NCBI RefSeq assembly: GCF_000429925.1 | Contig: NZ_AUCU01000018.1 | Coordinates: forward strand, 1 to 64,000 | Direction of reading: 5' to 3' | Length of the DNA: 64,000 nt | Source of the DNA: Desulfatirhabdium butyrativorans DSM 18734 | Lineage (GTDB): Bacteria > Desulfobacterota > Desulfobacteria > Desulfobacterales > Desulfatirhabdiaceae | Shown: in pieces, positions 49,720 to 64,000 of the stretch | How positions within the stretch are numbered: position 1 is the first letter of the stretch | How the letters are laid out: each line of letters starts with the position of its first letter | Position numbers and translations under genes: made by a program | The notes under the pieces: generated by a model | Databases searched by the model: none | Told to the model about the DNA's origin: nothing | Seen by the model: only the letters and a program-made list of their open reading frames with translations

Positions 49720-51192
49720 TCATGAACGCTGTTTTTCCCACTGATCTGCAAGTGACAGGCCGATCAGGGCCGAACGGGTCATTTTCAACACCCGCAGGGT
49801 TCGGCCTGTCAAAGCCGATTTCCCGATAACATAAGTCCCTGCTATATCTCGCTTGCCATCATTTCCAAAATCCGTTTCGTCCTCCCGGGCTGCATCTGTT
49901 TGGACCAGTACGCATTGATGCTCCAGATGGTTTCGAAGGATATCGATGCATCGGGCATCCGTCGACAGCCCCTTTCGGATATCCGGACGGCGTCCGTACA
50001 GGTCCTTGCTCATCCAGTACATGCCTCGAAGCGGCCAATTATCGGTTTCCAGCAAGGTGGGCTCCACCCCATAGCTTTTTTTCCCTTCGCGGTACCAGAC
50101 CGTTCGAAAATTCACCCGGTATGAGGCGATCTGCAGCCGAAACCGGATTTTCACCAGGAAGGCGATCTTGTCAAACAGGGAATAAGCGGTGCGAAACGCG
50201 ATTTTCAGCTTTTCGATTCCGGCATCGTCAAACGCCGCGCTTTCTTCGATGTCGGGTTCCCGTCCCGATGTCGTATGCGACATCGGATCAAGCGCCTCGA
50301 AACATAGGCGTTTGGCGCAGGCATATTCCCGCTGCAATAGATGGAAGTAATTCTGAAGCAATGATCCCGCTCCTGATTCCGTGCAATCCGGTGTGGAAGA
50401 AAGCCGGATTGCCTCGTCCGAGGCCGCTTCCAGATAATTGCCGAGATCGTTCAGCGGATTTAGAAAAAGCCGATTGTTCATCTGCCAGGATTCGAATGCG
50501 GCTTCCATGTCGTGGGTTTTGCCAGGTGCGACCGCAGACGTCAGAAAGCTTTTACGGAAACGAGGGCGCAGGATGCTGTTCAGCATGTTGAAATGACTCT
50601 TGAACAGTGGGCGGGCGGAAAGCGGAATCTTTTGGTTCAAGGCCTTTCGAAGCATCCGTCGGGCCTCGATCAGCAGGATCATGGACAGGTTTTTATCGCT
50701 CTGCAGGTGGGCGTATTGCATCAAACCGAGGCCTTTATTCGCCAAGGCCATGCCGAAATCCGGCTGAAGTTCAAGCGACTTGTCCCAGTACTCGATCGCT
50801 TCCACGAAACGGCCGATCTCAAACAGGGTGTTGGCCAGATTGGTATAGATGGCGCTGGCTGCACTTACCGGAAGCGCGCCTGTGGCTGTCTCCAGTGCCC
50901 GTACGGCGAGCCGGTTGTGAATCAACTGCTTTTCGATCTCCGGCAATTCCCAGGAATGCTTCTGCCGCTGATCTTCCGGCATCAGTTTGAAGCAATTGCC
51001 CCAGACATTGGAGAGATGATAATGGTAAACTGCCAGTTGATGCTGGCTGAGGTTTCGAATATCCACCACTTCCGCCAGTTTCATGGCATCGTTTAGCATA
51101 TCGGCCCTTCGCTTGAACAACGCCTGATCTGCAAGAACGCCGATTCGCTCGATGAGCTGCTCGGTTGCGTTTCCACGTGTCTGTTCCATCAT
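49720..51192 (-). CDS. TPR and LA2681-type HEPN domain protein (putative ribonuclease)
   Basis: A 490-residue helical protein. The N-terminal half has TPR-like repeats: AIYTNLANTLFEIGRFVEAI, then YWDKSLELQPDFGMALANKG. The C-terminal half matches my recollection of the LA2681-like HEPN family, with WYREGKKSYGVEPTLLETDN, then LYGRRPDIRKGLSTDARCID and the motif LRNHLEHQCV. RNHLEH fits R-x4-H, the catalytic signature of HEPN ribonucleases in toxins and phage-defence proteins. ATG 51192 overlaps the TGA of mobA-HD (ATGATG), so the two are translationally coupled. It is odd in a molybdenum-cofactor operon. Confidence 0.7.
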   Translation of the reverse strand: MMEQTRGNATEQLIERIGVLADQALFKRRADMLNDAMKLAEVVDIRNLSQHQLAVYHYHLSNVWGNCFKLMPEDQRQKHSWELPEIEKQLIHNRLAVRALETATGALPVSAASAIYTNLANTLFEIGRFVEAIEYWDKSLELQPDFGMALANKGLGLMQYAHLQSDKNLSMILLIEARRMLRKALNQKIPLSARPLFKSHFNMLNSILRPRFRKSFLTSAVAPGKTHDMEAAFESWQMNNRLFLNPLNDLGNYLEAASDEAIRLSSTPDCTESGAGSLLQNYFHLLQREYACAKRLCFEALDPMSHTTSGREPDIEESAAFDDAGIEKLKIAFRTAYSLFDKIAFLVKIRFRLQIASYRVNFRTVWYREGKKSYGVEPTLLETDNWPLRGMYWMSKDLYGRRPDIRKGLSTDARCIDILRNHLEHQCVLVQTDAAREDETDFGNDGKRDIAGTYVIGKSALTGRTLRVLKMTRSALIGLSLADQWEKQRS

Positions 51193-52307
51193 GCCTCCAA
51201 TCGATCGAGGGAATATCCGAGCAATGCTTCGACGCGCCGTTGACTCCGACAAGCCTGCGACTTCCGCTGCAAAATCGCCTGCCGAGCCGCCGGATCGACG
51301 CCGCGAAGGCGCAACGTTTCATCGAAGCGCCGCTCGATTCCAACGAAACAGTCGCCGACAATGCATTTGTCCGCAAGATAGACCACTTCGGCATCTGTCA
51401 CCAAAGCCTCGCCGGAAATCGGTTCAAAATCCATGTGAACCTCGACAATATCGGCGATGCGCGAAAACCCCATATCCCGCAGCATACAAGCGCCCTGCCG
51501 GGCATGCGCGGATTTGCCCCGAGCCAGATCGTGAAGACGGGCTGCTGCGATCACCGCTTCGCGACAGACATCATAACCGGCCGACTGCAGTGCCTCGGCA
51601 ATTTTCCCAGCCAATCGTGCGACGGCATCACAGTGCCTGTCTACCTGCGGTAAGACGTGAGCCCGTTTCAGAATTGCCCGGCATTCACTCTCCGAAGGGA
51701 TTTCATAGGACTTCAACGAACTGAGCGCCCGCTCAAGATCCTGTGGCGTATCGATATCTTCGGTGGTAAATCGATCCACGACTTCCACGTCGCAGGACTG
51801 GTTTTCCACTTCCCCGAAGAAACCGCGAAGCCCATCATCCCCTTTCCAGTTCTTGATCGCAGGTAGCAGGTGTGCGGACACAAGCGGTGGATGTCCCCGA
51901 CGTTCTTCGAATTTTGGGTAACAGACCGCGCACGAATTCATCCGGAAAAATTCAACAAGCCTCAGCACCGTTTGCCGCCGCACGAGAGGCATGTCGACGG
52001 GATGCACGAAAAATGCGCTGCATCTGGAAGACAGCCCGGAAAGACCTTTTACGATCGAGGAGAACATGCCGTTTGCATAGTTCGGATTGATTTCAACGGA
52101 AACATCCATCCGGTTGCATAGGGATGCCACTTCATCAGCCCGGTGACCGACCACAACGCAAATATTTTCCACTCCGACCGATCGATACAGGGAAATGATA
52201 TGTTCCAGCATGGTTTTCGCGCCGATGCATCGCAGCGGTTTGAATTCACCCAGCCGGGAAGAACGTCCGGCGGCGGGAACGATGACTGAAATTGCTTCGA
52301 TCTCCAT
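51189..52307 (-). CDS. MobA-like nucleotidyltransferase fused to an HD phosphohydrolase domain
   Basis: A 372-residue fusion. Residues 1-200 form a MobA/MocA-type NTP transferase (VIVPAAGRSSRLGEFKPL is the nucleotide loop; FFVHPVDMPLVRRQTV the second). Such enzymes add CMP or GMP to molybdopterin. Residues 215-365 are an HD domain (AARLHDLARGKSAHARQG, EVHMD). The combination occurs next to molybdenum hydroxylases in Desulfobacterota, consistent with maturation of the enzyme encoded at 54118-57934. It is preceded by iclR after 5 bases and overlaps the HEPN gene downstream. Confidence 0.83.
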   Translation of the reverse strand: MEIEAISVIVPAAGRSSRLGEFKPLRCIGAKTMLEHIISLYRSVGVENICVVVGHRADEVASLCNRMDVSVEINPNYANGMFSSIVKGLSGLSSRCSAFFVHPVDMPLVRRQTVLRLVEFFRMNSCAVCYPKFEERRGHPPLVSAHLLPAIKNWKGDDGLRGFFGEVENQSCDVEVVDRFTTEDIDTPQDLERALSSLKSYEIPSESECRAILKRAHVLPQVDRHCDAVARLAGKIAEALQSAGYDVCREAVIAAARLHDLARGKSAHARQGACMLRDMGFSRIADIVEVHMDFEPISGEALVTDAEVVYLADKCIVGDCFVGIERRFDETLRLRGVDPAARQAILQRKSQACRSQRRVEALLGYSLDRLEA

Positions 52308-52312
52308 CGATT

Positions 52313-53176
52313 TTACCGGTACGAAAGGGCGAAAGCGCCGCCTTTGAACAACGGTTCTTCACCCGATTGAACGGTAAGCATCTTCCTTTCCCGGTCGACA
52401 ACCTGCCGAATATCCCGTGCAGCTTTCTGAATGTCATCGATCATCTTCACGAGATGCGCCATTTCGAGTGCAGCAGCGAATCCCACCACCCAGAGTGCCA
52501 TCGGCAATCCACCCCGATTGCCGATGGAAACGGCGACGGCCCGGACTCCCGCCAGATACTCTTCATTATCCAACGCATAGCCATCCCGACAAACCCGCTC
52601 GATTTCCGATAGATAGCGATCTCTTTCCGTGATGGACCGCTCCGTGTAGCGGGGAAGATCGTTTTCCTTCAGAAATCGTTCAATTGCCTCCGGTGCAAGA
52701 GATGAAAGATACAATTTCCCCAGGGCGCCGGCCAGCAATGGGATGCCGGTTCCGGGTGGTGCACTCAATTTCAGGTGCTTCGTCGATTCGGCCACCGCCA
52801 CGATCAGCGTCCGGCGCCGCCCCATCGCACCCAGAAACACGGTTTCGTGTATCTGGTCCCGCAACGACTCCAAAATGCCTTTGACTGCACCGCCGACCCG
52901 ATACGACTGCCAGTCCTGAAAGGCGAGATCGGCAACGGCCGGGCCCAGAACGAACGTATTTTCCTGCGGACATTGTTCCAGCGCGCCTATGGTCATCAAA
53001 GACTGGATCAATCCATGCGTGGTGCTCTTACTCCAGCCGAGACTTCGCGCAAGATCGCTCAAATTATAGACCGCAGGAGATTCCGCTACGATTTTCAGCA
53101 TCTGAAAGGCCCTTTGGACAGCCGGTGCGCGATATTTGACAGATTGTGTGCGGGTTTCCATATCCCAATGCCCCAT
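52313..53176 (-). CDS. IclR family transcriptional regulator
   Basis: A 287-residue regulator. An N-terminal winged helix (PAVQRAFQMLKIVAESPAVY, LSDLARSLGWSKSTTHGLIQ) is followed by the IclR effector domain (QIHETVFLGAMGRRRTLIVA, LPLLAGALGKLYLSSLAP-like, GYALDNEEYLAGVRAVAVSI). ATG 53176 has CGGAGG at good spacing; upstream in-frame codons lack similarity. It starts the minus-strand operon iclR, mobA-HD, HEPN. It faces the hydroxylase operon across a palindrome that should be its operator. Confidence 0.9.
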   Translation of the reverse strand: MGHWDMETRTQSVKYRAPAVQRAFQMLKIVAESPAVYNLSDLARSLGWSKSTTHGLIQSLMTIGALEQCPQENTFVLGPAVADLAFQDWQSYRVGGAVKGILESLRDQIHETVFLGAMGRRRTLIVAVAESTKHLKLSAPPGTGIPLLAGALGKLYLSSLAPEAIERFLKENDLPRYTERSITERDRYLSEIERVCRDGYALDNEEYLAGVRAVAVSIGNRGGLPMALWVVGFAAALEMAHLVKMIDDIQKAARDIRQVVDRERKMLTVQSGEEPLFKGGAFALSYR

Positions 53177-53280
53177 CGAATGCCTCCGATCATGCTCGCG
53201 AAAGGTACCATCCATGCCGGGAGAGAAATGCAAGGGCTTTTGCGAAGACCGGGAACGTCTCTCCGGATCGGCAGGCCTCA

Positions 53281-53320
53281 TTTGCGATGTCATGATAAAC
53301 GAGAGGAAGCGCTATGTCAA
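53281..53320 (-). promoter_or_regulatory. Sigma-70 promoter of iclR
   Basis: On the minus strand TTGACA (complement of 53315-53320), then exactly 17 bases, then TATCAT (5 of 6 to consensus) makes a strong promoter. Its -35 box is one arm of the operator palindrome. The iclR start is about 115 bases downstream. Binding of a repressor to the palindrome would block it. Confidence 0.7.
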
Positions 53321-53330
53321 TGTTGACATA
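53313..53330. promoter_or_regulatory. Operator palindrome, copy 1 (iclR / hydroxylase promoters)
   Basis: TATGTCAA-TG-TTGACATA is an exact inverted repeat containing TTGACA on both strands. On the plus strand TTGACA 53323-53328 is followed 17 bases later by TATGTA, a moderate -10, for the hydroxylase operon. The flanks CGC on the left and TATATTTTT (53329-53337) on the right are also shared with copy 2. Confidence 0.75.
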
Positions 53331-53473
53331 TATTTTTAGAGCTGTTATGTAGCTACATCATCCGGAAACCGGAATTGTATGGGGCATCCGTGGATTTCCG
53401 GATGAACGACAGGCTCCGTTCCTGGAACGACTTGCTAATGCCATTTTGCTATCAAAATGAGAAGGTTTTCGCT

Positions 53474-54100
53474 GTGTCTGACCTATTCGGAACCCTCTTT
53501 CTGGCTCGGCACGGGGCTGTTGAGGCTGCGAAAGAAAAGCGTTTTCTCGGTCAGATGGATGCGCCGCTCTCACCGGAAGGATTCGATCAAGCCAGACGGT
53601 TGGCGCACTGTCTCGAAAGCATCGCTCTGACGCAAATCTGGAGCAGCGATCTGCGGCGCGCGGCCCAGACCGCAGACATCATCTGCCAGGAGCGCCGTAT
53701 CGATTTGAAAACGGCTTCTTCCCTTCGGGAAATCAATCTGGGGAAATGGGAAGGCGCGGGCATGGAAGATACCCGGCTCAAATATCCCGAGCTCTGGGAA
53801 GCCCGCGGAAGGGAAATCGATACATTTCGTCCTCCCGAAGGCGAAAGTTTCACCGATCTGCAACTGCGGGTTGTTCCCGGTATTCTCCGGATCGTCGGAT
53901 CGGTTTCTGGAAACATCCTGATTGTCACCCACGCAGGTGTCATACGGGTGCTGCTTTGCCACATCCTGCAAATACCGCTTCGGTTCCTCTTCCGGTTCCA
54001 TCTGGACTATTGTGGTGTGACACTGATTCAGGACGTCGAAACCATACCCCGGATTCTGGCGATCAATCGAATTCCCAACGGGTCATTTGTTCCCCATTGA
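53474..54100 (+). CDS. Histidine phosphatase family protein (CobC/phosphoglycerate-mutase fold)
   Basis: A 208-residue enzyme. GTLFLARHGAVEAAKEKRFL carries the catalytic RHG, IWSSDLRRAAQTADII the second Arg, REINLGKWEG the Glu motif, and ILIVTHAGVIRVLL the second catalytic His. GTG 53474 is preceded by GAGAAGG and gives the normal N-terminus; ATG 53438 is an alternative. Such phosphatases accompany MobA-HD proteins in molybdenum-hydroxylase clusters, possibly acting on a cofactor precursor. First gene of the plus-strand operon. Confidence 0.78.
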   Translation: MSDLFGTLFLARHGAVEAAKEKRFLGQMDAPLSPEGFDQARRLAHCLESIALTQIWSSDLRRAAQTADIICQERRIDLKTASSLREINLGKWEGAGMEDTRLKYPELWEARGREIDTFRPPEGESFTDLQLRVVPGILRIVGSVSGNILIVTHAGVIRVLLCHILQIPLRFLFRFHLDYCGVTLIQDVETIPRILAINRIPNGSFVPH

Positions 54101-54117
54101 ATCAAGGAGATCCATCC

Positions 54118-55014
54118 ATGCGCTTGCCCAAATTCGAATTTCACGCACCCGAAACCCTGAAGGAGGCTTTCGGCATCCTGGCGCAGTACACCACCCGAAC
54201 CAGGGTTCTGGCCGGCGGAACCGATCTGCTGGTCAACATGAAGAAACGGGTTCTGACCCCCGATCACCTCGTCTCCATCTCCCGGATACCGGAGCTGACG
54301 ACAATTGAGGTTTCGGATGACGGCATGCGGATCGGCGCCTGTTCCACCGTAGCCGACCTGTGTCGATCCGAAGCCATTCGGAATACATTCCCCGCTCTGG
54401 CCGAAGGCGCGCGAAACCTGGGAACGCCCCTGATTCGAAACCTCGCGACGATCGGCGGCAATCTGGGATCGGCCAGACCGGCTGCGGATCTACCCCCATC
54501 ACTGATGGTTTACGGAGCGCAAGTCGTTTTGAAGAACCTTGCCGGTGAACGCAAATTGCCTTTGGACCGGTTTTTTATCGGACCAGGACTCACCGAAATC
54601 CAACCCGACGAAATATTGACCGGAATTTTGGTTCCTGCTCCGCCGAAACGATCGGGTGCCTGGTATATCAATCTCGGGGTCCGGAAAGGGCAGGACTGCA
54701 ATCTGGTGAACGCCGCATCCTGGATCTGTCTGGAAGCCGATGGACGCATTCGCGACGTTCGCATCGTCCTGGGGTGCGTTGGCCCGGTTCCTCTTCGGGC
54801 AAAAAGCGCAGAACAACGATTGATCGGTTCCCGACCGGACGGCAGTGTATTTTCCGTCGCCGCCGAGCATGCCCAGCGGGACTGCTCTCCCATCGACGAT
54901 TTCAGGGCCTCTGCCGATTATAAACGGGCCATGGCCGGCGTGCTGGTTCGAAGAACGCTCGAAGCGGCATATCGGCAAGCCGCCCAGGACGGAAACAAAG
55001 GAGAAAACGCATGA
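54118..55014 (+). CDS. Molybdenum hydroxylase FAD subunit
   Basis: A 298-residue CoxM/HcrB-type subunit of the xanthine dehydrogenase family. FEFHAPETLKEAFGILAQ opens it. RVLAGGTDLLVNMKKRVLTP is the FAD pyrophosphate loop, and GTPLIRNLATIGGNLGSARP the second flavin motif. It lacks the extra 4Fe-4S insert of 4-hydroxybenzoyl-CoA reductase beta subunits (about 320 residues). It takes electrons from the 2Fe-2S subunit. ATCAAGGAG precedes the ATG. Four-base overlap with the next gene. Confidence 0.9.
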   Translation: MRLPKFEFHAPETLKEAFGILAQYTTRTRVLAGGTDLLVNMKKRVLTPDHLVSISRIPELTTIEVSDDGMRIGACSTVADLCRSEAIRNTFPALAEGARNLGTPLIRNLATIGGNLGSARPAADLPPSLMVYGAQVVLKNLAGERKLPLDRFFIGPGLTEIQPDEILTGILVPAPPKRSGAWYINLGVRKGQDCNLVNAASWICLEADGRIRDVRIVLGCVGPVPLRAKSAEQRLIGSRPDGSVFSVAAEHAQRDCSPIDDFRASADYKRAMAGVLVRRTLEAAYRQAAQDGNKGENA

Positions 55015-55523
55015 AACGACTCATTCGATTGACCATCAACGATCGATTTTTTGAAGTTGCCGTCGAACCCAATCAGACGCTGGTCGATCTTCTCCGGTAC
55101 CAATTGGGAATGACCGGAACCAAGAAAGGTTGTGAATTGGGCGACTGCGGTTCCTGCACCGTCATTCTGGATGGTAAGGCTGTCAATTCCTGTCTGGTGC
55201 TCGCCATGCAGGCCGATGGTCGAACCATTCAGACCATCGAAGGACTGGAAACCGAAAACGGGCTTCATCCCGTTCAGAAGGCCTTTGTGGAAAAAGGCGC
55301 CATCCAGTGTGGCTTTTGTTCTTCCGGGATGATCCTTTCCGCCAAAGCCCTTCTGGATGAAAACCCCAATCCGGACGATCTGCAAATCCGCAGCGCCCTG
55401 TCCGGAAATCTGTGCCGATGCACCGGGTATCAGAAAATCATCGAGGCGGTCAAATCCGCCGCCCAATCCGAAAACACGCGCTGCACGTGCCAGCGTTCCA
55501 CCGGATCAGGAGAAAACCCATGA
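55011..55523 (+). CDS. Molybdenum hydroxylase 2Fe-2S subunit
   Basis: A 170-residue subunit with two 2Fe-2S clusters. The plant-ferredoxin-type site has Cys41, Cys46, Cys49 (CELGDCGSCT) and Cys61. The helical domain has QCGFCSSGMILSAKALL and LCRCTGYQKI. It passes electrons from the molybdenum site to FAD. ATGA overlaps at both ends show tight coupling with its partners. Confidence 0.94.
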   Translation: MKRLIRLTINDRFFEVAVEPNQTLVDLLRYQLGMTGTKKGCELGDCGSCTVILDGKAVNSCLVLAMQADGRTIQTIEGLETENGLHPVQKAFVEKGAIQCGFCSSGMILSAKALLDENPNPDDLQIRSALSGNLCRCTGYQKIIEAVKSAAQSENTRCTCQRSTGSGENP

Positions 55524-57934
55524 ACGACTACGCTGTCATTCACCAAAGAACTCCCAGACTGGATACACCGGACAAGGCGACAGGTAAAGCCGTTTTCATC
55601 GATGACATGCGCTTGCCGGGCATGCTCTACGGCGCCCTTCTGCAAAGTCCTCTGGCGCATGCCCGGATCGTCCGGATCGACACCGAAAAAGCCAGAAGGC
55701 TTCCAGGGGTGAAAGCCGTCGTGACGGCGGCGGATGCCGGTTTGGTGAAATACGGTGTCAGTCCCGCCCGCTACGACGAGACCCTTTTTTGCCACGATAA
55801 AGTCCGTTATGTGGGAGACGATATCGCAGCCGTTGCGGCCGAAAATTTGGAAACAGCCCTCGAGGCCGTCTCCCTGATCGAAGTCGAATACGAAGCGCTT
55901 CCTGCCGTTTTCAGCGTTGAAGAAGCGCTTGCGGAAGGCGCTCCACTGCTTCACGACGCATATCCCCGGAATCTGTGTGCGGAAGTCCATTCGGAATTCG
56001 GGGATGTGGAAGCCGCGCTTCTGGAAAGCGATCTCGTCAAGACGACGACTTTCCGGAACAAACGCCAGGATGCGGCATTCATCGAACCCCAGGGGTGCAT
56101 CGCTCAATACGACCACGCCGGGAACCTCACCTTGTACAGCTCCACCCAGGTTCCCCACTATGTGCAGCGTACGCTGGCCATGGTGCTGAAACTGCCGATC
56201 GGGAAAGTGCGTGTGGTCAAGCCTTATGTGGGCGGGGGATTCGGCATCAAGGCGTCGGCCAATCCGCTGGAGCTTGCGGCCTCCCTGCTGTCCATGAAAA
56301 CGGGAAAACCCGTGCAGATGGGATATACCCGTGAACAGGTCTTTCAATACGGTCGGGCTCGGCATCAGTTTACCCATACGATGACGACGGGCGTCAAGCG
56401 GGACGGCACCATCCTGGCACTGAAGCATGTCTGCCATCTCGACGGAGGCGCCTATGCAAGTTTCGGCATTGCAACGGTCTATTACGCCGGGTCACTTCTG
56501 GGCGGGCCATACAAACTTCCCAACATGAAATATGACGGCTACCGGGTCTATACGAACAAACCGGCCTGTGGCGCCATGCGGGGGCATGGCGGTGTGGCTG
56601 CCAGAGCCTGCTGGGAGCAACAACTCGACATGATCACCGAAGAACTCGGTATCGATCCGATCGAATTTCGATTGAAAAACATGATGGTCGCCGGAGATAT
56701 CACCTGCAACGAACTCAACATGAGCAGCCTTGGCATGCGGGAATGCATCGAAGCCGTAGCGGACGGCTCCGATTGGCGAGCGAAAAAAGGAAAGCTTCCC
56801 CGGGGAAAAGGCATCGGCATGGCATGCGGATTTTTTGTCTCCGGGGCCGGTTATCCCATCTACCGTTCCGACACCTATCATTGCACCGTGGTCATTAAGC
56901 TGACCGAAGATGGGGGGACTGCCATCGTGTATACGGCATCGGCTGAAATCGGTCAGGGCTCCGATACCACCTTTGCCATGATCGCCGCCGAAGCCTTGGG
57001 AATCCATCTGGAGGATGTCCGGATCGAATCCGGAGATACCGATTTTGGCGTGGATCTGGGAGCCTACTCCAGCCGGCAAACGCTCATGACCGGCCACGCA
57101 GTCAAGGAAGCGGCCGAAGACGTCCGAAGACAGGTGCTGGAGGTGCTGGCCAAAGCGCTCAACACGCCCGTCGAAAATCTGGACATCCGCAACAGCCTCA
57201 TCATCTTTAAGAACGGCGATGTCGATTTCTCTGCGCTACGGACCCGCTATATCAAGGAGCACCGTGGATGGACCGACAACCCGGATAGCGGACCGTTCAC
57301 CTTTCGGGAGGCTGCCCGCATGGCTTACCTGGCCAAGGGCACCATTGTCGGTACCGGCAAATACAAGCCGCCGGTGCTGGGCGGTACATACAAGGGCGCT
57401 GCGGTCGGCACCTCACCGGCCTACGGATGTTCGGCTCAGGTGGCCGAAGTGACGGTGGATGAGGAAACCGGCAAGATCACGGTGGATCGCATTACGGACG
57501 CACATGACTGCGGCCGGGCCATCAACGTCATGTCCGTCGAAGGGCAAATGGAAGGCTCTGTCGCGATGGGATTGGGTGAGGCCCTCTACGAGGAGGTCAA
57601 GTTCGACGGTAAAGGCCGTGTCATCAACGCAGATTTCGCCGAATACAAAATTCCAACCATGCTCGACATGCCTCCGGTGAATGCCATCATCGTCGAAAGC
57701 GATGAACCCAACGGCCCCTTCGGTGCCAAGGAAGTCGGCGAGGGCGCCATCATGCCCACCATTCCTGCCATTCTCAATGCGGTCTACGACGCCATCGGCG
57801 TCCGAATTCATGAGCTTCCCCTGACGCCGGAGCGCGTCTTTTGCGCCATTCGCAAAGCCCGGAACAATCATGAGGAGCGGAAAAAATCGGAGGCCTTCGC
57901 TCAGGAAGACGCCTTTGGCAAAGACCGTGGTTGA
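55520..57934 (+). CDS. Molybdenum hydroxylase large subunit, molybdopterin-binding
   Basis: An 804-residue subunit of the xanthine dehydrogenase/aldehyde oxidase family. DKATGKAVFIDDMRLPGMLY is the opening motif. VVKPYVGGGFGIKASANPLE, KPACGAMRGHGGVAARACWE, AEIGQGSDTTFAMIAAEALG and DLGAYSSRQTLMTGHAVKEA line the cofactor. The catalytic Glu is in FGAKEVGEGAI. The closest remembered group is the aromatic/CoA-ester hydroxylases and dehydroxylases such as 4-hydroxybenzoyl-CoA reductase, but purine or nicotinate hydroxylases are also possible. The substrate is unresolved. Confidence 0.9.
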   Translation: MNDYAVIHQRTPRLDTPDKATGKAVFIDDMRLPGMLYGALLQSPLAHARIVRIDTEKARRLPGVKAVVTAADAGLVKYGVSPARYDETLFCHDKVRYVGDDIAAVAAENLETALEAVSLIEVEYEALPAVFSVEEALAEGAPLLHDAYPRNLCAEVHSEFGDVEAALLESDLVKTTTFRNKRQDAAFIEPQGCIAQYDHAGNLTLYSSTQVPHYVQRTLAMVLKLPIGKVRVVKPYVGGGFGIKASANPLELAASLLSMKTGKPVQMGYTREQVFQYGRARHQFTHTMTTGVKRDGTILALKHVCHLDGGAYASFGIATVYYAGSLLGGPYKLPNMKYDGYRVYTNKPACGAMRGHGGVAARACWEQQLDMITEELGIDPIEFRLKNMMVAGDITCNELNMSSLGMRECIEAVADGSDWRAKKGKLPRGKGIGMACGFFVSGAGYPIYRSDTYHCTVVIKLTEDGGTAIVYTASAEIGQGSDTTFAMIAAEALGIHLEDVRIESGDTDFGVDLGAYSSRQTLMTGHAVKEAAEDVRRQVLEVLAKALNTPVENLDIRNSLIIFKNGDVDFSALRTRYIKEHRGWTDNPDSGPFTFREAARMAYLAKGTIVGTGKYKPPVLGGTYKGAAVGTSPAYGCSAQVAEVTVDEETGKITVDRITDAHDCGRAINVMSVEGQMEGSVAMGLGEALYEEVKFDGKGRVINADFAEYKIPTMLDMPPVNAIIVESDEPNGPFGAKEVGEGAIMPTIPAILNAVYDAIGVRIHELPLTPERVFCAIRKARNNHEERKKSEAFAQEDAFGKDRG

Positions 57935-57948
57935 AGGAAAGGATATTC

Positions 57949-58542
57949 ATGATCCGAAGACCGCACGATATTCCGGATGAAAACCGGACGGCCGCCAGCG
58001 TCATGTTTGCCGATCATCCGGATGTGATTCGACTGAGGGCTTCGCGGGTGCTTGTCGTTGGCTCGGGCCGATCTGCGGCGGTTGTCGCACATGCCCTTGC
58101 CGAATCCGGAATCGGAGCCGTCCGGATGGTTTCGGAAGCGGTAAACGTCCAAAATGTGCTCGACGGTTGCTCGGTTATTTTGATGGGCAAAACCGATCCG
58201 ATCACCCGGGTTTTAATCAACCGGATGTCCATCCAAAAACGCCTGCCGGTCGTCTATGGTGCTGCCACCGATTTTACCGGAATGGTGACGACGATGATGC
58301 CCGATCAAACCCCCTGTCTGGAATGTCTGTTCGGCCGAAAAGAAATGGAAGAACAGGCCATCGGCATGGTGGAGCCCATGTACAGTGTTGTGGCTTCCAT
58401 ACAAAGTCTGGAAGCCGTCAAGATCCTGCTTGGCGTGGGACCGCTTTTGCTCAACCGCCTTCTGATCATCAACGGGATGAGCCAATCCTACCGGAAAATC
58501 GAACTCGCAAAGAACCCGGATTGTCCTGCATGTTTTCCGTGA
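57949..58542 (+). CDS. ThiF/MoeB-like protein, shortened
   Basis: A 197-residue E1-like Rossmann protein. LRASRVLVVGSGRSAAVVAH is the nucleotide-binding start and GCSVILMGKTDPITRVLINR a middle strand. PCLECLF and CPACFP keep two Cys pairs for structural zinc. SVVASIQSLEAVKILLGVGP is the typical late helix. The D-x-V--SNL-RQ segment and much of the ATP site of MoeB (about 250 residues) are missing, so adenylation is doubtful. It follows the Mo subunit after 14 bases and may serve cofactor sulfur chemistry as a scaffold. Confidence 0.68.
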   Translation: MIRRPHDIPDENRTAASVMFADHPDVIRLRASRVLVVGSGRSAAVVAHALAESGIGAVRMVSEAVNVQNVLDGCSVILMGKTDPITRVLINRMSIQKRLPVVYGAATDFTGMVTTMMPDQTPCLECLFGRKEMEEQAIGMVEPMYSVVASIQSLEAVKILLGVGPLLLNRLLIINGMSQSYRKIELAKNPDCPACFP

Positions 58543-58570
58543 CAGGCGAACAAGGGATGATGGGTCAGTC

Positions 58571-58618
58571 ATGAAACGGCATATCCGAGTCCCGCTTCTA
58601 TCGGGAATGCCGTTTCAT
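58571..58618. terminator. Bidirectional hairpin between convergent genes
   Basis: ATGAAACGGCAT (58571-58582) and ATGCCGTTTCAT (58607-58618) are exact inverted copies, and inside them TCCCG (58590-58594) pairs with CGGGA (58602-58606). It lies between the plus-strand ThiF-like gene and the minus-strand oxidoreductase remnant, where a terminator for both is expected. No long U-tract follows on either side. Confidence 0.45.
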
Positions 58619-59461
58619 GGACTGCCTTCTTTCCGGCTGGATGTTCAGCCATGGGTCACAGGCGACACGTTGACAAAAAACTCCTGCAGTGCAACGGCGC
58701 CGCCAACCGGGTCCCAGATCCATATCCTGTATCCAGTGGTTTGCGAAGGTTCGATCGTAAAGATTTCGAAACAGGAGTTCATGAATCACCGCCAGATTGA
58801 AGGCATAATCGGTTCCAGGGCGAATCTGAATGAACCGGCTTGCCTTGGTTGCGGAAACATTGGCCCGAATATCGATCACTGTCAGGCGGCAACCCTTTTC
58901 CATAGCGTCCATCAGGTTGTTGACTTCCTGAACGTTGACCGCTTCAAAAATGTTCCGTAACTGCAAAACGACATGCTTGGCGTTCTTGAGATCGTACACC
59001 ACATCCTTCCTTCCCAACCCGGCAAGGGATAGATGAGCATGATGCACGTTTCTGGCGCAGGATGCGTCATGGTTGCAGTAATTCGGTGATCCAAGCCCCC
59101 GGACAAAGGCTTTGTGAAGATCCTGGAAAGGGCCGCCGCGGTTGGAGAAGGCGACACTTCGTGAGCCGTATCGATCCATCACCTCCTTCATACGCCGGGA
59201 GACGAAATCGAAAGCTTCATCCCAGGAAACCGGCCGCCATTTGCCTTCCCCCCGCTCTCCTTCCCGGATTAGCGGTGTATGGGGGCGTTCCCTGTCCATG
59301 ATCAATGCCTTGCCTGCAGCACCTCTGGGACACACGGCCCCCTTCATTGCCGGGACGTTCTCGTTTCCCTGGATGAACCGAATATCGCCATCTTCGACAT
59401 CTACCTGAATGGGACATCGGACCGTACACATACCGCATACTGAGTATACTCGTTTGATCAT
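58598..59461 (-). pseudogene. Molybdopterin oxidoreductase, N-terminal third only
   Basis: A 287-residue frame. VYSVCGMCTVRCPIQVDVED is the 4Fe-4S (C-x2-C-x3-C) motif. AVCPRGAAGKALIMDRERPH, WRPVSWDEAFDFVSRRMKEV and NYCNHDASCARNVHHAHL are normal for the DMSO-reductase superfamily, whose members have 650-900 residues. After YDRTFANHWIQDMDL the frame turns to low-similarity sequence. The continuation ALQEFFVNVSP appears in another frame and soon stops, so a frameshift and a large 3' deletion are both present. It follows the FmdE/MoeA gene by 24 bases and was probably its partner enzyme. Confidence 0.75.
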
Positions 59462-59485
59462 GTATCCATTTCCTTGAAGATGGGG

Positions 59486-61135
59486 TTATTTTCCAAAAGG
59501 ACATTTGGGATAAGAGCAGCTTTTACACTCCAAACAAAACGCGCCGTGCCCCATTCGGGCCAGATCGGATCGGGAAATGGGAACGCTCGCCAGAAGGCGG
59601 GGGAATAGCAGATCGAAACTGGTCGTCGGAAAGTACAGGGCGCAAGCCGGAACTCCGATTACCTGAACCGTTCCGATCCGGGCGAGAAGCGTCATCGCTC
59701 CGGGCAATATGGGTGCGCCATACACCATATCCTGCGCGCCTGCTTCAATGAGACCTTTGCGGGTGAGATCGTCGGGGTCTACCGAAAGACCCGCGGTCGT
59801 GACGAGAATATCGGCGCCGGCATCCAGGATGTCCTGGATGCCCGATGCAATCGCATCCGTTTCATCCGGCACGATGCGGGTGGCGACAATGGCGCATTCA
59901 AATTTTTCGGCTTTGGATCGAATGATGGGAATGAATCGATCCTCAATCAAACCCCGAAACACTTCCGTTCCCGTTACCAGGACACCCAAAGCGGCTTTTC
60001 GGAGGGGAACCACCCGAAACAGGGGGCCCGCGTCCAGAATGCTCATGGCTTTCAGGAAATCCGCCCGGGGCAAAAACAGCGGTATGGCACGGGTTCCCGC
60101 AAACGCCCTGGCATCGCTCAGAACCGTATAGTTGTTGCGGGTTGCCGCCATGACCCCCGGAATGTTGTTGAAAGCTTCGAGACGCGCTTCTTCCACGAGC
60201 AGCATGCCTGGCTGTTCGGCTGAAAAGGTGACTTTTCCCTCACGAGGCCCATCTGAAAAACAGACGCCGGAGCCAGCCATTCCCCTCGCGAAAGCGAGCG
60301 CCGCAACGTTTTCGTGCACCCACTGCCCGTCGATCTCGATGCCCTCATCCACAAATACATGGTTCTTTCCGAGGGCATGCAAGCGGCAGAGATCGCCCGG
60401 GCCGATGGTGTCACCCTTGCGGAATGCCGGGCCTTTCTTCTTGCCTGGTATGATCTCGGTCATGTCATGAAGGACCGATATTCCCACAGAACGTTCCACC
60501 GGTATCGTTCGAAGCGCCGGAAACGGTTGGGATGCTTGGGTAAGCCGATAAGGCGATTGCCCCTGACATCCCCTGCAAATCCGACCGTGATCCGCCGGAT
60601 AGCCTTCTCCGCAGATGGGGCAGTTGACGATCCGATTCTCGATGCGCTTTTCATGAAAACGCTCAAGAACATGGATATTCTCCACACGGCAGGCGTTGAA
60701 TCCAGCACATCGAATCTGATCCAGAATTTTCTCTCTCTGCTGCTCCGATTTTGGTTTGGTTTTATAAAACCAGCTATGGAGCTCCGGATACATCGCCAAT
60801 TTCTGCGGATCCAGCACAACCCGAACCCCCTCCCCCCGATATTTGTCGTAAAGCGCAAGCGCATACCGCCCCAGATGAATCACTTTCAACCATCCGTTTC
60901 CGGTTGTGCAGGGGGTCAGCATTTGGATGGCGTCCGGAAGACACTTGGCGGTCTCCGAAATGGCGTCGAACAGAATTCCCCGGGGCAAATGCCGCATCGC
61001 CAGATCAACCATAACCCCACCGATCACGACGCCGGGGGCGGGATATCCATGAAAAGACTTTGCTTCCTCTATAAACGCTTCAAACGAATAGGGACCGATC
61101 GTATGCACCGGATCGGACGGAATTGGATCAGGCAT
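59486..61135 (-). CDS. FmdE domain fused to a MoeA/MogA-type molybdopterin-binding domain
   Basis: A 549-residue protein. Residues 15-170 match the FmdE family (EEAKSFHGYPAPGVVIGGVM, LTPCTTGNGWLKVIHLGRYA). CPICGEGYPADHGRICRGCQ is a zinc ribbon at about 185-205. The second half holds a MoCF-biosynthesis domain (LGVLVTGTEVFRGLIEDRFI, VTTAGLSVDPDDLTRKGLIE). The C-terminus ends FCLECKSCSYPKCPF, a four-Cys cluster. Such proteins sit beside formate dehydrogenase-like oxidoreductases and likely handle metal insertion or sensing. ATG 61135 follows AAAAGGA. Operator copy 2 is about 180 bases upstream. Confidence 0.8.
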   Translation of the reverse strand: MPDPIPSDPVHTIGPYSFEAFIEEAKSFHGYPAPGVVIGGVMVDLAMRHLPRGILFDAISETAKCLPDAIQMLTPCTTGNGWLKVIHLGRYALALYDKYRGEGVRVVLDPQKLAMYPELHSWFYKTKPKSEQQREKILDQIRCAGFNACRVENIHVLERFHEKRIENRIVNCPICGEGYPADHGRICRGCQGQSPYRLTQASQPFPALRTIPVERSVGISVLHDMTEIIPGKKKGPAFRKGDTIGPGDLCRLHALGKNHVFVDEGIEIDGQWVHENVAALAFARGMAGSGVCFSDGPREGKVTFSAEQPGMLLVEEARLEAFNNIPGVMAATRNNYTVLSDARAFAGTRAIPLFLPRADFLKAMSILDAGPLFRVVPLRKAALGVLVTGTEVFRGLIEDRFIPIIRSKAEKFECAIVATRIVPDETDAIASGIQDILDAGADILVTTAGLSVDPDDLTRKGLIEAGAQDMVYGAPILPGAMTLLARIGTVQVIGVPACALYFPTTSFDLLFPRLLASVPISRSDLARMGHGAFCLECKSCSYPKCPFGK

Positions 61136-61318
61136 GTGGATTTCCTTTTCTGAATTTTCTGAGAGCCTGCTCCACCCCGCTGTCGCATGTGCAACGCCGA
61201 ATTGGTGGCCACCTGTTTCTATGGGCGGCTGTTTCCCGCTGCAAGGAAAAATTGCCCGACTGCAGGGGATGTGCAGCATCAAAGAATGGGTTTCCGTTCA
61301 GGCACCGTTTGAAAAATA

Positions 61319-61336
61319 TATGTCAATATTGACATA
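61319..61336. promoter_or_regulatory. Operator palindrome, copy 2 (FmdE/MoeA unit)
   Basis: TATGTCAA-TA-TTGACATA is an exact inverted repeat. Read on the minus strand, the 28 bases 61339-61312 differ from 53310-53337 at one position only, including the CGC left flank and the TATATTTTT right flank. The conserved orientation points to the FmdE gene. On the plus strand TTGACA is followed by GATAAT after 15 bases or TAATAG after 17. Confidence 0.75.
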
Positions 61337-61552
61337 GCGATCTTGATACGATAATAGCAGACGAAAATCAAGAAAATTGACCCGGCATATTCAGGCGTAG
61401 AATACTTTTTCATGCATGGATCGAATCCGGCATGCCATTTTGCATGCAACAAAGGCCATCACGGCATTTCATTCTGAAAGGAGGCGATGGAGCGGCCCCT
61501 GATATTCCGGCGTAATCAATTTTGATGGACTCGCAAAAAGGCCAACATATGG

Positions 61553-61689
61553 ACGGCTTCGAAAAAAGGCCGCAGGCAAGGAGTGCAAATCCCGAGGAGT
61601 GAGGCGTACTTAGACGTACGCCGCAACGACGAGGGATGCAGCACGATCCCGCGGAACGCGGGACATCCGGCCTTTTTGCGAAGCCGTCA
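61553..61689. mobile_element. 137-bp MITE-like element with 21-bp terminal inverted repeats
   Basis: The ends 61553-61573 and 61669-61689 are inverted copies matching at 20 of 21 bases (GACGGCTTCG-AAAAAGGCCG type). The interior has no gene. Parts of the same end (GACGGCTTCGCAAAAA) recur at 62825-62840 in front of modB, and TGGACTCGCAAAA recurs at 61527 and inverted near 63714. This suggests several copies or fragments in the region. Confidence 0.7.
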
Positions 61690-61724
61690 ATTTTCATCAA
61701 CCGCATACCTGTTAGGAGGATATG

Positions 61725-61922
61725 ATGGAATGCAACCGGCGCGACTTCATGAAGGTCACTGGAGCGGGAGCTGTCGGCCTGTCGTTGATGCAACTGGGCC
61801 TCGATATCCGGCCCGTTCAGGCTTACAGCGCCCGTCTCAAAACCGAGAACACAAAGGAAGTCGTCACGATCTGCCCTGGAATCATTTCGAAGACTGATCG
61901 CGATCTCGCAGGAACCGGATGA
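61725..61922 (+). pseudogene. Formate dehydrogenase alpha subunit, Tat-signal fragment
   Basis: A 65-residue frame starting MECNRRDFMKVTGAGAVGLS. The Tat motif RRDFMK and the following LMQLGLDIRPVQAYSARLKT are very close to the N-terminus of periplasmic formate dehydrogenase large subunits. After VVTICP the expected Fe-S cysteines (Y/FC-x2-C) are absent. The frame goes GIISKTDRDLAGTG and stops, so the catalytic 900 residues are deleted. GGAGG precedes the ATG. It may still make a useless exported peptide. Confidence 0.75.
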
Positions 61923-62023
61923 AGCGAAATATACCTGGCGAACCCTACCCCAGCGTGTCCATTTCCCTCTGAAAAATTGACCGGAATAACCGGCTTCTGA
62001 TAGATCCAAAAAAGGAAAAAACA

Positions 62024-62800
62024 ATGTCTAAACGGTTTCTAAACCAGCCAGTGCTATGGCTTCTCGTTCTTCTGGCAACCGGAGCCATCGATGTTTACGC
62101 CGGAGAGCAAATCACGGTCAGTGCGGCCATCAGCCTGAAAAATGCCTTCGAGGACATCGCCGTTCTGTATGAAAAACGGCACCCGGACATCAAGCTCTTG
62201 TTCAATTTTGGCGCCTCCGGTGACCTGGCCAGGCAGATCGAAGGCGGCGCACCGGTGGATGTATTTGCCTCTGCAGCTCAGAAGGACATGGACCAACTGG
62301 ACCAGAAGGGGTTCATTGAGCGCTCCACCCGGAAAAATTTTGTCGGTAACACGGTGGTGTTGATCAAACCGGCATCATCCGGTATGGATATCCGGGGATT
62401 CGAGGATTTGCTCAAACCCGGGGTCAAAATGGTCGCCATCGGCAATCCCAAAACCGTTCCTGCAGGGCGCTATGCCCAGGAAGTGTTGATCAGCCTGAAA
62501 TTGTGGGATAGCATCCCGGGAAAAATCGTTTTTACCGAAAACGTCCGTCAGGTTCTCGATTACATCGCCAAAAACGAAGCCGATGCCGGGATCGTCTATG
62601 CGACGGACGCAATGGTCAGGGCCAGGGAAGTGGTGGTCATCGCCAGGGCGCCGTCCGGCTCTCACACGCCGATCGTTTATCCCCTTGCTCTGGTGGCTGC
62701 ATCGACCCATGCAGATGCCGCTCGGGATTTCATCAAGGTCATCCTGTCGGATGAGGGCATGAAAACCCTTCAGAAATACGGATTTGAACCGGTCCGATAG
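62024..62800 (+). CDS. modA: Molybdate/tungstate ABC transporter substrate-binding protein
   Basis: A 258-residue periplasmic protein. LNQPVLWLLVLLATGAIDVY with cleavage after VYA is a signal peptide. ITVSAAISLKNAFEDIAVLY supplies the oxyanion Ser residues. NFGASGDLARQIEGGAPVDV follows, AAQKDMDQLD is a ModA motif, and GIVYATDAMV closes the second lobe. It binds molybdate or tungstate for the enzymes of this island. modB follows after a 113-base gap. Confidence 0.92.
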   Translation: MSKRFLNQPVLWLLVLLATGAIDVYAGEQITVSAAISLKNAFEDIAVLYEKRHPDIKLLFNFGASGDLARQIEGGAPVDVFASAAQKDMDQLDQKGFIERSTRKNFVGNTVVLIKPASSGMDIRGFEDLLKPGVKMVAIGNPKTVPAGRYAQEVLISLKLWDSIPGKIVFTENVRQVLDYIAKNEADAGIVYATDAMVRAREVVVIARAPSGSHTPIVYPLALVAASTHADAARDFIKVILSDEGMKTLQKYGFEPVR

Positions 62801-62913
62801 AAAACGCCCGAACAGGAAGAATCCTGTTGACGGCTTCGCAAAAAAACCGGATGTATCGCGTTCCGCCTGATCGCGCGGCATCCGGATCTTTTTTCGACAT
62901 TCCTTCATATCGT

Positions 62914-63570
62914 ATGGACGAGACCATGTTGTTCTCATTGCGCCTGACCGTTCAGGTAGCCGTTACGGCCACGGTGCTGATGATCGTCTTCGGCGTGAGT
63001 ACCGCTTACCTTCTGGCAAGAAGGCCCTTCAGGGGAAGAAACCTGGTGGATATGCTCATCACCCTCCCCCTGATTCTGCCACCGACAGTCACGGGATATT
63101 ATCTGATCATCCTGTTCGGCCGCAGTGGGGTCATCGGAAAATGGATCTATGAATATACCGGATGGAGCATCATGTTCACCTGGTATGCCGCTGTGCTGGC
63201 AGCATTTGTCGTTTCCGTGCCGCTGCTGATCAAAACCGCCCGGGCGGCCATCGAGTCTGTTGATCAGGACATCATCAGCGCCGCCATGGCACTGGGGCTA
63301 ACGGAACGGCAGATCGTGATCCACATCACCCTGCCTCTGGCGAAAAAGGGTATTTTCGCAGGCATCGTGCTGGCTTTCGCCCGCTCGCTCGGAGAGTTTG
63401 GCGCCACGCTGATGCTGGCGGGCAACATTCCGGGTAAAACCAGCACCATGCCGCTTGCCATCTACGCTTTTGCCAACAGCGGGGAATGGGATAAGGCCAA
63501 TTTCCTGGTTATCCTGCTGACCTTCGTTTCTGGTTTGGCCCTGTTTCTGGCCAATCGCTTCAGTCGGTGA
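62914..63570 (+). CDS. modB: Molybdate ABC transporter permease
   Basis: A 218-residue permease with five helices. MLFSLRLTVQVAVTATVLMI starts the core. TLPLILPPTVTGYYLIILFG and MALGLTERQIVIHITLPLAK (EAA-like loop) precede FARSLGEFGATLMLAGNIPG, the ModB signature. ATG 62914 is chosen since the upstream frame (62827-62913) overlaps a fragment of the dispersed element. No modC ATPase gene follows, so the transporter needs an ATPase encoded elsewhere. Confidence 0.9.
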   Translation: MDETMLFSLRLTVQVAVTATVLMIVFGVSTAYLLARRPFRGRNLVDMLITLPLILPPTVTGYYLIILFGRSGVIGKWIYEYTGWSIMFTWYAAVLAAFVVSVPLLIKTARAAIESVDQDIISAAMALGLTERQIVIHITLPLAKKGIFAGIVLAFARSLGEFGATLMLAGNIPGKTSTMPLAIYAFANSGEWDKANFLVILLTFVSGLALFLANRFSR

Positions 63571-63615
63571 AACGAAGGGGATGCAACCCCTTTTCGTTGC
63601 CATTCCCAGGTTGAT

Positions 63616-63651
63616 TTTTTCGAGACGATCCGTTTCGATGGTCTCGAAAAA
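63616..63651. terminator. Perfect 11-bp hairpin downstream of modB
   Basis: TTTTTCGAGAC pairs with GTCTCGAAAAA around a 14-base loop. With A and T tracts in the stem it could act on either strand. Confidence 0.4.
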
Positions 63652-63731
63652 GTCGATTGGTCTCAAAGAACCCGTATTCACCCTTACTCCCCGATACAAG
63701 TCAAAGAAGCGACTTTTGCGAGTCCACTAAA

Positions 63732-63749
63732 TATGCCAATATTGACATA
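63732..63749. promoter_or_regulatory. Operator palindrome, copy 3 (one mismatch)
   Basis: TATGCCAA-TA-TTGACATA matches copies 1 and 2 except one base in the left arm. With one extra base on each side it stays symmetric. It lies about 145 bases upstream of the start of the last gene. TTGACA at 63742 could be a -35 box for that gene. Confidence 0.6.
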
Positions 63750-63892: not shown

Positions 63893-64000
63893 ATGACGGA
63901 CACAGTAACGATAAACGGTCATGTTGTAGCATATTCAGCCGGTCAAACCATACTGGAAGTCGCAGAATCTCATGGAATAGGCATTCCCACTCTGTGCTAC
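63893..64000 (+). CDS. N-terminal 2Fe-2S domain of a NuoG/HndD/FdhA-like protein (partial)
   Basis: The first 36 residues, MTDTVTINGHVVAYSAGQTI and then LEVAESHGIGIPTLCY, run off the right edge. T-TING--V-A--GQTILE-A---GI-IPTLCY is the standard opening of the ferredoxin-like 2Fe-2S domain of complex-I NuoG, iron hydrogenase HndD and NAD-linked formate dehydrogenase alpha subunits. The first cluster Cys is the one in TLCY. GGAG is 9 bases upstream. In a molybdenum island with operator copy 3 upstream, a formate dehydrogenase-type partner is most likely. Confidence 0.75.
   Translation, partial: MTDTVTINGHVVAYSAGQTILEVAESHGIGIPTLCY

Follow-up and report, generated by a model that had tools for sequence, protein, structure and literature searches.

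A palindrome at molybdenum and tungsten genes of Desulfatirhabdium butyrativorans is a probable operator of a short ModE-type regulator

A 64,000-nucleotide stretch from Desulfatirhabdium butyrativorans DSM 18734 (contig NZ_AUCU01000018.1, positions 1 to 64,000; hereafter the window) carries three copies of the palindrome TATGTCAA-N2-TTGACATA, and we were particularly interested in which protein recognizes it. A sequence-only reading had assigned it to the IclR-family protein encoded beside the first copy and had proposed a local IclR regulon. Our analysis points elsewhere. The palindrome is most likely bound by a small ModE-type regulator that many sulfate reducers and related bacteria encode; specifically, we think it very probable that it serves as operator for a ModE protein, typically of ~125 residues, that consists of the DNA-binding domain alone, lacks TOBE domains and would control molybdenum/tungsten (Mo/W) uptake, cofactor genes and formate dehydrogenase.

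The three copies lie at 53313-53330 and 61319-61336 (no mismatch) and at 63732-63749 (one mismatch), and the window holds no further match with up to three mismatches, just as the sequence-only reading had it. Shuffled windows contained 0.03 matches on average, with none of 100 shuffles reaching three, and 300 permuted palindromes of the same make-up yielded two exact window matches in total (mean 0.007 each) versus three for the degenerate form TATGYCA-N4-TGRCATA. The previously noted agreement of copies 1 and 2 at 27 of 28 bases was likewise reproduced, copy 1 being read on the plus and copy 2 on the minus strand, with CGCTATGTCAATRTTGACATATATTTTT in common. Copy 1 sits between the divergent iclR gene and a histidine phosphatase/hydroxylase operon, covers two divergent predicted -35 boxes and has a flanking CG on the left only; copy 2 lies upstream of fmdE-moeA (read on the minus strand), with ~700 bp separating it from modAB on its other side, and has its CG on the right only (GCGATC); copy 3, with the left half TATGCCA, lies upstream of fdhA, again with CG on the right only. 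Each copy indeed heads a molybdenum-related unit, with one correction to the earlier description: the supposed 2Fe-2S protein after copy 3 is the N terminus of a nicotinamide adenine dinucleotide (NAD)-type formate dehydrogenase alpha subunit whose gene contains an in-frame TGA codon (Sec376, in HCARTUHAP).

Across the source genome (4.48 Mb in 73 contigs, 97% complete), TATGYCA-N4-TGRCATA occurs exactly five times, the three window copies being joined by two on contig C5 (C5:145128 and C5:152607), and all five adjoin Mo/W genes or modE. The other 24 matches all have two mismatches and look like background, since the total of 29 places compares with 27 for a backward-read control. The palindrome is a mark of Mo/W genes. 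The scan lends support to the idea of one operator for several molybdenum-related units and did not reveal many unrelated copies; the term "local", on the other hand, proved too narrow for a regulon with sites on two contigs.

Both C5 copies begin 363 bp before matches to two paralogous short ModE-type proteins (C5:145557-145937 and C5:153036-153392; 86% identical). One is divergent from an X304-tupA2-tupA-tupB-tupC operon encoding a tungstate-type transporter (TupA scores 249 bits in NCBIfam, under its cut-off of 400), where X304 is a protein family of ~250 to 300 residues; the other is divergent from a gene row comprising CcsA/ResB-like (named by reading, without a Pfam hit), TonB receptor and Oxidored_molyb genes. 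Operator and modE together form a segment that occurs twice within 7.5 kb (C5:145128-145937 and 152607-153392), with a different operon divergent from each copy.

The C5 protein matches the TIGR00637 ModE domain with 73.8 to 76.5 bits, its closest solved relatives by sequence are the ModE structures 2ijl, 1b9m and 1o7l, and a fold search with a model of a relative from locus L213 (predicted local distance difference test score, pLDDT, 89) returned ModE in all of the top five matches. Profile, PDB sequence and fold agree on an N-terminal LysR-type winged-helix ModE domain, while no TOBE domain was found in the C5 protein and no other ModE domain elsewhere in this genome. At each of the 80 ModE loci described below, the reading frame ends at most 151 residues after the beginning of the ModE match, and the 71 open reading frames (ORFs) within a length filter of 100 to 170 residues have a median of 125. 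Full-length ModE has two TOBE domains (PMC11980592), for which such frames leave too little room.

To what extent do palindrome and regulator travel together? A ModE profile search of named genomes gave 154 loci, the best 80 of which were kept and scanned for the palindrome. With at most one mismatch, 38 sites (14 exact) were present in 32 loci, whereas 40 permuted palindromes averaged 0.25 sites and never gave more than 2. Most of these sites (32/38) precede modE, fdhA, fmdE-moeA, tupA, modA, a molybdenum oxidoreductase gene or X304 by no more than 700 bp, and 30 remain target-linked when modE, the basis of locus choice, is left uncounted; the other six do not precede any such gene at this distance. 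A good example is Desulfonema magnum 4be13 (L235), in which an exact site is located between fdhA and modE.

The same association is visible when starting from the palindrome. In 57 nearer genomes, 49 of 55 distinct palindrome places outside the source genome (G000) were annotated (the remainder being G048:C61, G023:C62, two extra places in G054 and two in G046), and a reference gene lay within 1.5 kb of 22 of them. One of these 22 has a TonB receptor alone; the other 21/49 adjoin a Mo/W gene, modE or X304. A scrambled palindrome in the same genomes gave 29 loci from 34 distinct places, one of them in G000, and none of the 29 adjoins such a gene, two showing weak matches to a TonB receptor and to a large oxidoreductase ORF in L011 (named by reading). 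In a wider screen of 289 genomes of the class (cut-offs of 1e-15 for the ModE profile and 1e-40 for a single IclR sequence), TATGYCANNNTTGACATA was found exactly in 31 genomes, and one locus was annotated in each of the 30 that remain without the source genome. A Mo/W-type gene, modE or X304 was within 1.5 kb of the palindrome in 20 of the 23 genomes with ModE versus 2 of the 7 without (p=0.007). Conversely, a short ModE is encoded by 21 of the 23 genomes with a Mo-linked palindrome, G000 counted, versus 135 of 266 others (Fisher p=1e-4). For IclR relatives, the corresponding figures are 8 of 23 and 70 of 266 (p=0.46).

The site itself resembles a ModE box. The spacing between its 7-bp arms is 4 bp in the 38 sites, with every other spacing from 0 to 22 represented at most four times. 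CG is found at positions -3/-2 in 18 of these sites and at the mirror position in 24, with other flank offsets tested giving 0 to 2; at least one side carries it in 27 of 38. With its flanks, the site becomes CGNTATGYCA-N4-TGRCATANCG and aligns in register with the classical ModE box, for which the consensus ATCGNTATATA-N6-TATATANCGAT is given in PMC545781 and a similar one in PMC2700814.

A second regularity concerns the promoters of the presumed targets. The extended -10 element TGNTA starts 13 to 14 bases past the site in 19 of 44 cases when read toward the target and in 0 of 44 when read the other way, a post hoc count in that the sequences were viewed before the motif was chosen and the 44 sites were hand-picked as having a target gene. 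TTGACA is present in the target-side half of 31 of the 44 sites, the two positions together leaving a spacer of 17 or 18 bp; a plain count of TATAAT past the site had no clear peak. The fixed TGNTA distance, combined with TTGACA in the half-site, argues that the operator overlies the -35 box, which is a repressor position. Copy 1 fits this arrangement on both sides. Toward the hydroxylase cluster, the predicted promoter (53323-53351, plus strand) would consist of TTGACA (53323-53328), 17 bp and TATGTA (53346-53351) with a TGN; toward iclR, a divergent promoter (53292-53320, minus strand) is predicted with TTGACA, 17 bp and TATCAT (53297-53292).

The computed features, namely the sites, their ModE box register, the neighboring genes, the co-occurrence with modE and the fixed distance to the extended -10 element, suggest how the system might operate. 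The site would be a variant ModE box, CGNTATGYCA-N4-TGRCATANCG, whose inner half, TTGACA(TA), would at the same time provide the target promoter with its -35 box, and a bound ModE dimer would block RNA polymerase and thereby repress transcription. Because the short ModE has no sensor domain, metal status would have to be relayed by another component. Predicted targets are the Mo/W uptake genes mod, tup and probably that of the TonB receptor, fmdE-moeA for cofactor insertion, the selenocysteine formate dehydrogenase, the molybdenum hydroxylase cluster, the X304 family and, in several genomes, modE itself. A broader proposal, which we put forward tentatively and consider somewhat less than probable, is that a widespread ModE devoid of a metal domain, present in Desulfobacterales, Syntrophobacterales and relatives, may repress a joint Mo/W regulon (Mod, Tup, TonB receptor, FmdE-MoeA, selenocysteine formate dehydrogenase and the new family of ~260-residue proteins) through a rewritten box overlapping the -35 element, with sensing in trans by another protein.

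A candidate for this relay is possibly encoded in the same genome. The only two TOBE domains found are both in one Phage_integrase protein (on C71, L296:5580-6716), an architecture that we take to be TunR-like; the protein is a possible metal sensor, and its gene adjoins a chromate transporter gene. A Phage_integrase-TOBE fusion has been described in PMC545781.

How do other explanations fare? That the adjacent IclR protein owns the palindrome is suggested by its gene lying beside copy 1, and the iclR-histidine phosphatase promoter of relatives G005, G002, G006 and G254 keeps both half-sites (one of them mismatched in G002). Co-occurrence and synteny nevertheless count against it, and we reject IclR ownership, to which we attach little likelihood. 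Besides the absence of association across the 289 genomes, IclR is encoded at just 3 of the 80 ModE loci (L212, L213, L217), of which L212 and L213 are the only ones among the 32 bearing the palindrome; the N4-spaced palindrome is present at 1 of 30 IclR loci, namely the window's own, and at none of 8 longer ones (seven from other genomes plus a second locus of this genome). Comparison of orthologous iclR promoters, which the sequence-only reading had advised, showed the N2 palindrome to be absent from all four relatives with the closest IclR (58 to 61% identical). Their promoters hold other conserved inverted repeats, TGTTCA-N6-TGAACA (with T as its last base in G002) and TTCATTGRAATGRAC, neither of which is present in the window; these may suit IclR better and may be its real operator. 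In the four relatives (L110, L120, L171, L217), the half-sites are 14 to 15 bp apart, and in an alignment the window lacks ~13 bases between them, which leaves one canonical palindrome. Copy 1 may have become a ModE box recently, or it may still be used by IclR; of the three copies it is the least certain, and we have more confidence in copies 2 and 3.

TunR (integrase fold plus TOBE) and TaoR (helix-turn-helix plus a part resembling periplasmic binding proteins, PBPs) differ from ModE in their DNA-binding folds. The repeat CGGTCACG-N14-CGTGACCG, which we take to be that of TunR, has no match with fewer than 4 mismatches in 16 positions in the window, L011, L012 or L296, and was rejected as the operator here. 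In PMC545781, this repeat is given as the ModE sites of Desulfovibrio. Either of these known Mo/W regulators might own the palindrome, given that both families regulate Mo/W genes in the Deltaproteobacteria, sulfate reducers among them (TaoR is cited in PMC11980592), and that this genome encodes the integrase-TOBE protein. We regard this as very improbable, with the palindrome being in register with the ModE box and situated beside modE. PBP-type ORFs retrieved from the molybdenum loci in a TupA search, two of them fragments, had secreted-like starts by eye and none was TaoR-like, in a search that would miss a TaoR too unlike TupA; a search with PF12727 was uninformative, matching 278 of 289 genomes, mostly, among the matches listed, with long ORFs the size of MoeA fusions. 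There remains the view that the palindrome is nothing but a pair of divergent -35 boxes, TTGACA being contained in both arms and copy 1 being able to serve two divergent promoters. However, conservation continues past TTGACA to CGNTATG, GGCATA variants break TTGACA while keeping the symmetry, the TGNTA signal is confined to the target side, and promoters have no need of a fixed arm spacing; we see scarcely any chance that this is correct.

Several observations nonetheless weigh against the assignment to ModE. The TIGR00637 score of the C5 protein is under the curated cut-off (98.5), and the C terminus is divergent in one of the two ModE copies. CG is missing on both sides of 11 of the 38 sites, all five copies in this genome carry it on one side only, and copy 2 (in the fmdE direction) and copy 3 are without TGNTA at offset 13 to 14. 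A simple ModE dimer would not explain the gap of 14 to 15 bp at the relatives' iclR promoter. As for the statistics, the genomes are kin and not phylogenetically independent, the sets overlap with some loci stemming from screened genomes (e.g., L212 from G005, L213 from G002, L217 from G254), 3 of the 23 Mo-linked genomes (G209, G286, G086) count as such solely by a match to the 2Fe-2S subunit, and two genomes, G006 and G054 (fragmented, 92 and 86% complete), have Mo-linked palindromes with no ModE detected. Finally, a site with up to one mismatch is absent from 48 of the 80 ModE loci. In these, 59 target upstream regions contain six two-mismatch variants (control mean 0.16, maximum 2). The generic CGNTAT-N12-ATANCG has 4 exact and 18 one-mismatch occurrences there, compared to 0 to 3 and 6 to 20 for five scrambles; not exceeding all five, it does not establish E. 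coli-like sites in the site-less loci.

The short ModE and its proposed operator share with E. coli-type ModE and its box (ATCGNTATATA-N6-TATATANCGAT) a homologous DNA-binding domain, a 28-bp span, the identical outer CGNTAT...ATANCG and targets that include mod and molybdenum enzyme genes. They differ in that the regulator has no TOBE domain, the inner TATATA becomes TATGYCA, the site covers the -35 box, and tup and formate dehydrogenase are among the targets. The ModE site upstream of modDABC in Geobacter sulfurreducens has a left half, CGTTATGTCA, equal to the half-site described here, with a different right half and a full-length regulator (PMC545781, Table 6). In that 2004 survey of delta-proteobacteria, the ModE genes of two Desulfovibrio species and D. 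psychrophila encode the DNA-binding domain only, as here; as far as its accessible part goes, it reports no E. coli-type sites for them, proposes the CGGTCACG-N14-CGTGACCG repeat for the two Desulfovibrio species, lists no site for D. psychrophila in its tables and calls molybdenum sensing unclear. The accessible parts of PMC5343134 and PMC10102598 hold nothing on ModE sites. No description of this operator was found in the literature searched, which did not include the papers on TunR and TaoR, and part of it may already have been published; ModE boxes are known, and, as far as our searches reach, an operator of such form for a DNA-binding-domain-only ModE is new. For the short ModE, it offers a candidate operator together with a promoter geometry and a list of targets, all of which can be tested, including in Desulfonema magnum 4be13, and it might contribute to understanding how formate dehydrogenase is adjusted to Mo/W supply in sulfate reducers.

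The analysis also points to X304 as a new co-regulated protein family (e.g., L012:6294-7208 on C5 and L213:10563-11342). It gave no Pfam match for two members and no NCBIfam match for one, and a weak model (pLDDT 68, three sequences) had no PDB match at E 0.001. In several genomes, the operator is followed by X304 as the first gene. A site with at most two mismatches lies within 500 bp upstream in 7 of 8 distinct cases, two of them partial, a count biased by the loci having been gathered via palindrome or ModE. A TonB-dependent receptor gene is part of the row after the operator in this genome (L012:10893-12893) and directly follows it (one mismatch) in G001 (L144:6042-8015), a placement that suggests outer-membrane Mo/W uptake.

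Turning to the gene neighborhoods of the window copies, the IclR-family ORF (52313-53293, minus strand; Pfam HTH_IclR and IclR_C) probably starts further downstream, near 53176, judging from its closest relatives, which align from residue 41 or later. It is followed on the same strand by a MobA-like nucleoside triphosphate transferase with an HD domain, of the DVU_1551 family (51189-52307). On the plus strand, the histidine phosphatase (53375-54100) is the first gene of the hydroxylase cluster and precedes the molybdenum hydroxylase subunits, assigned by Pfam (54130-57934): the flavin adenine dinucleotide (FAD) subunit, whose exact gene start is a prediction (ORF end at 55014), the 2Fe-2S subunit (55011-55523) and the molybdenum-binding subunit (to 57934), with a ThiF/MoeB-like protein next (57931-58542). 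The fmdE-moeA gene, a fusion of FmdE with a MoeA-like MoCF_biosynth domain (59486-61282, minus strand), has a likely start at 61135. On the plus strand follow modA, for the molybdate-binding protein (62024-62800; TIGR01256 above cut-off), modB, for the ATP-binding cassette permease (62827-63570), and the start of fdhA, for the selenocysteine formate dehydrogenase alpha subunit (63893-64000, continuing to contig position 66676). An Rfam search of the window, L011 and L012 gave no molybdenum cofactor riboswitch, only a tRNA reaching the gathering score. Adjoining fmdE-moeA are short pieces of molybdopterin oxidoreductases, at 58598-59461 (287 residues) and 61725-61922 (65 residues, resembling a twin-arginine translocation signal), of which relatives seem to have longer versions; in the window they look like gene remnants.

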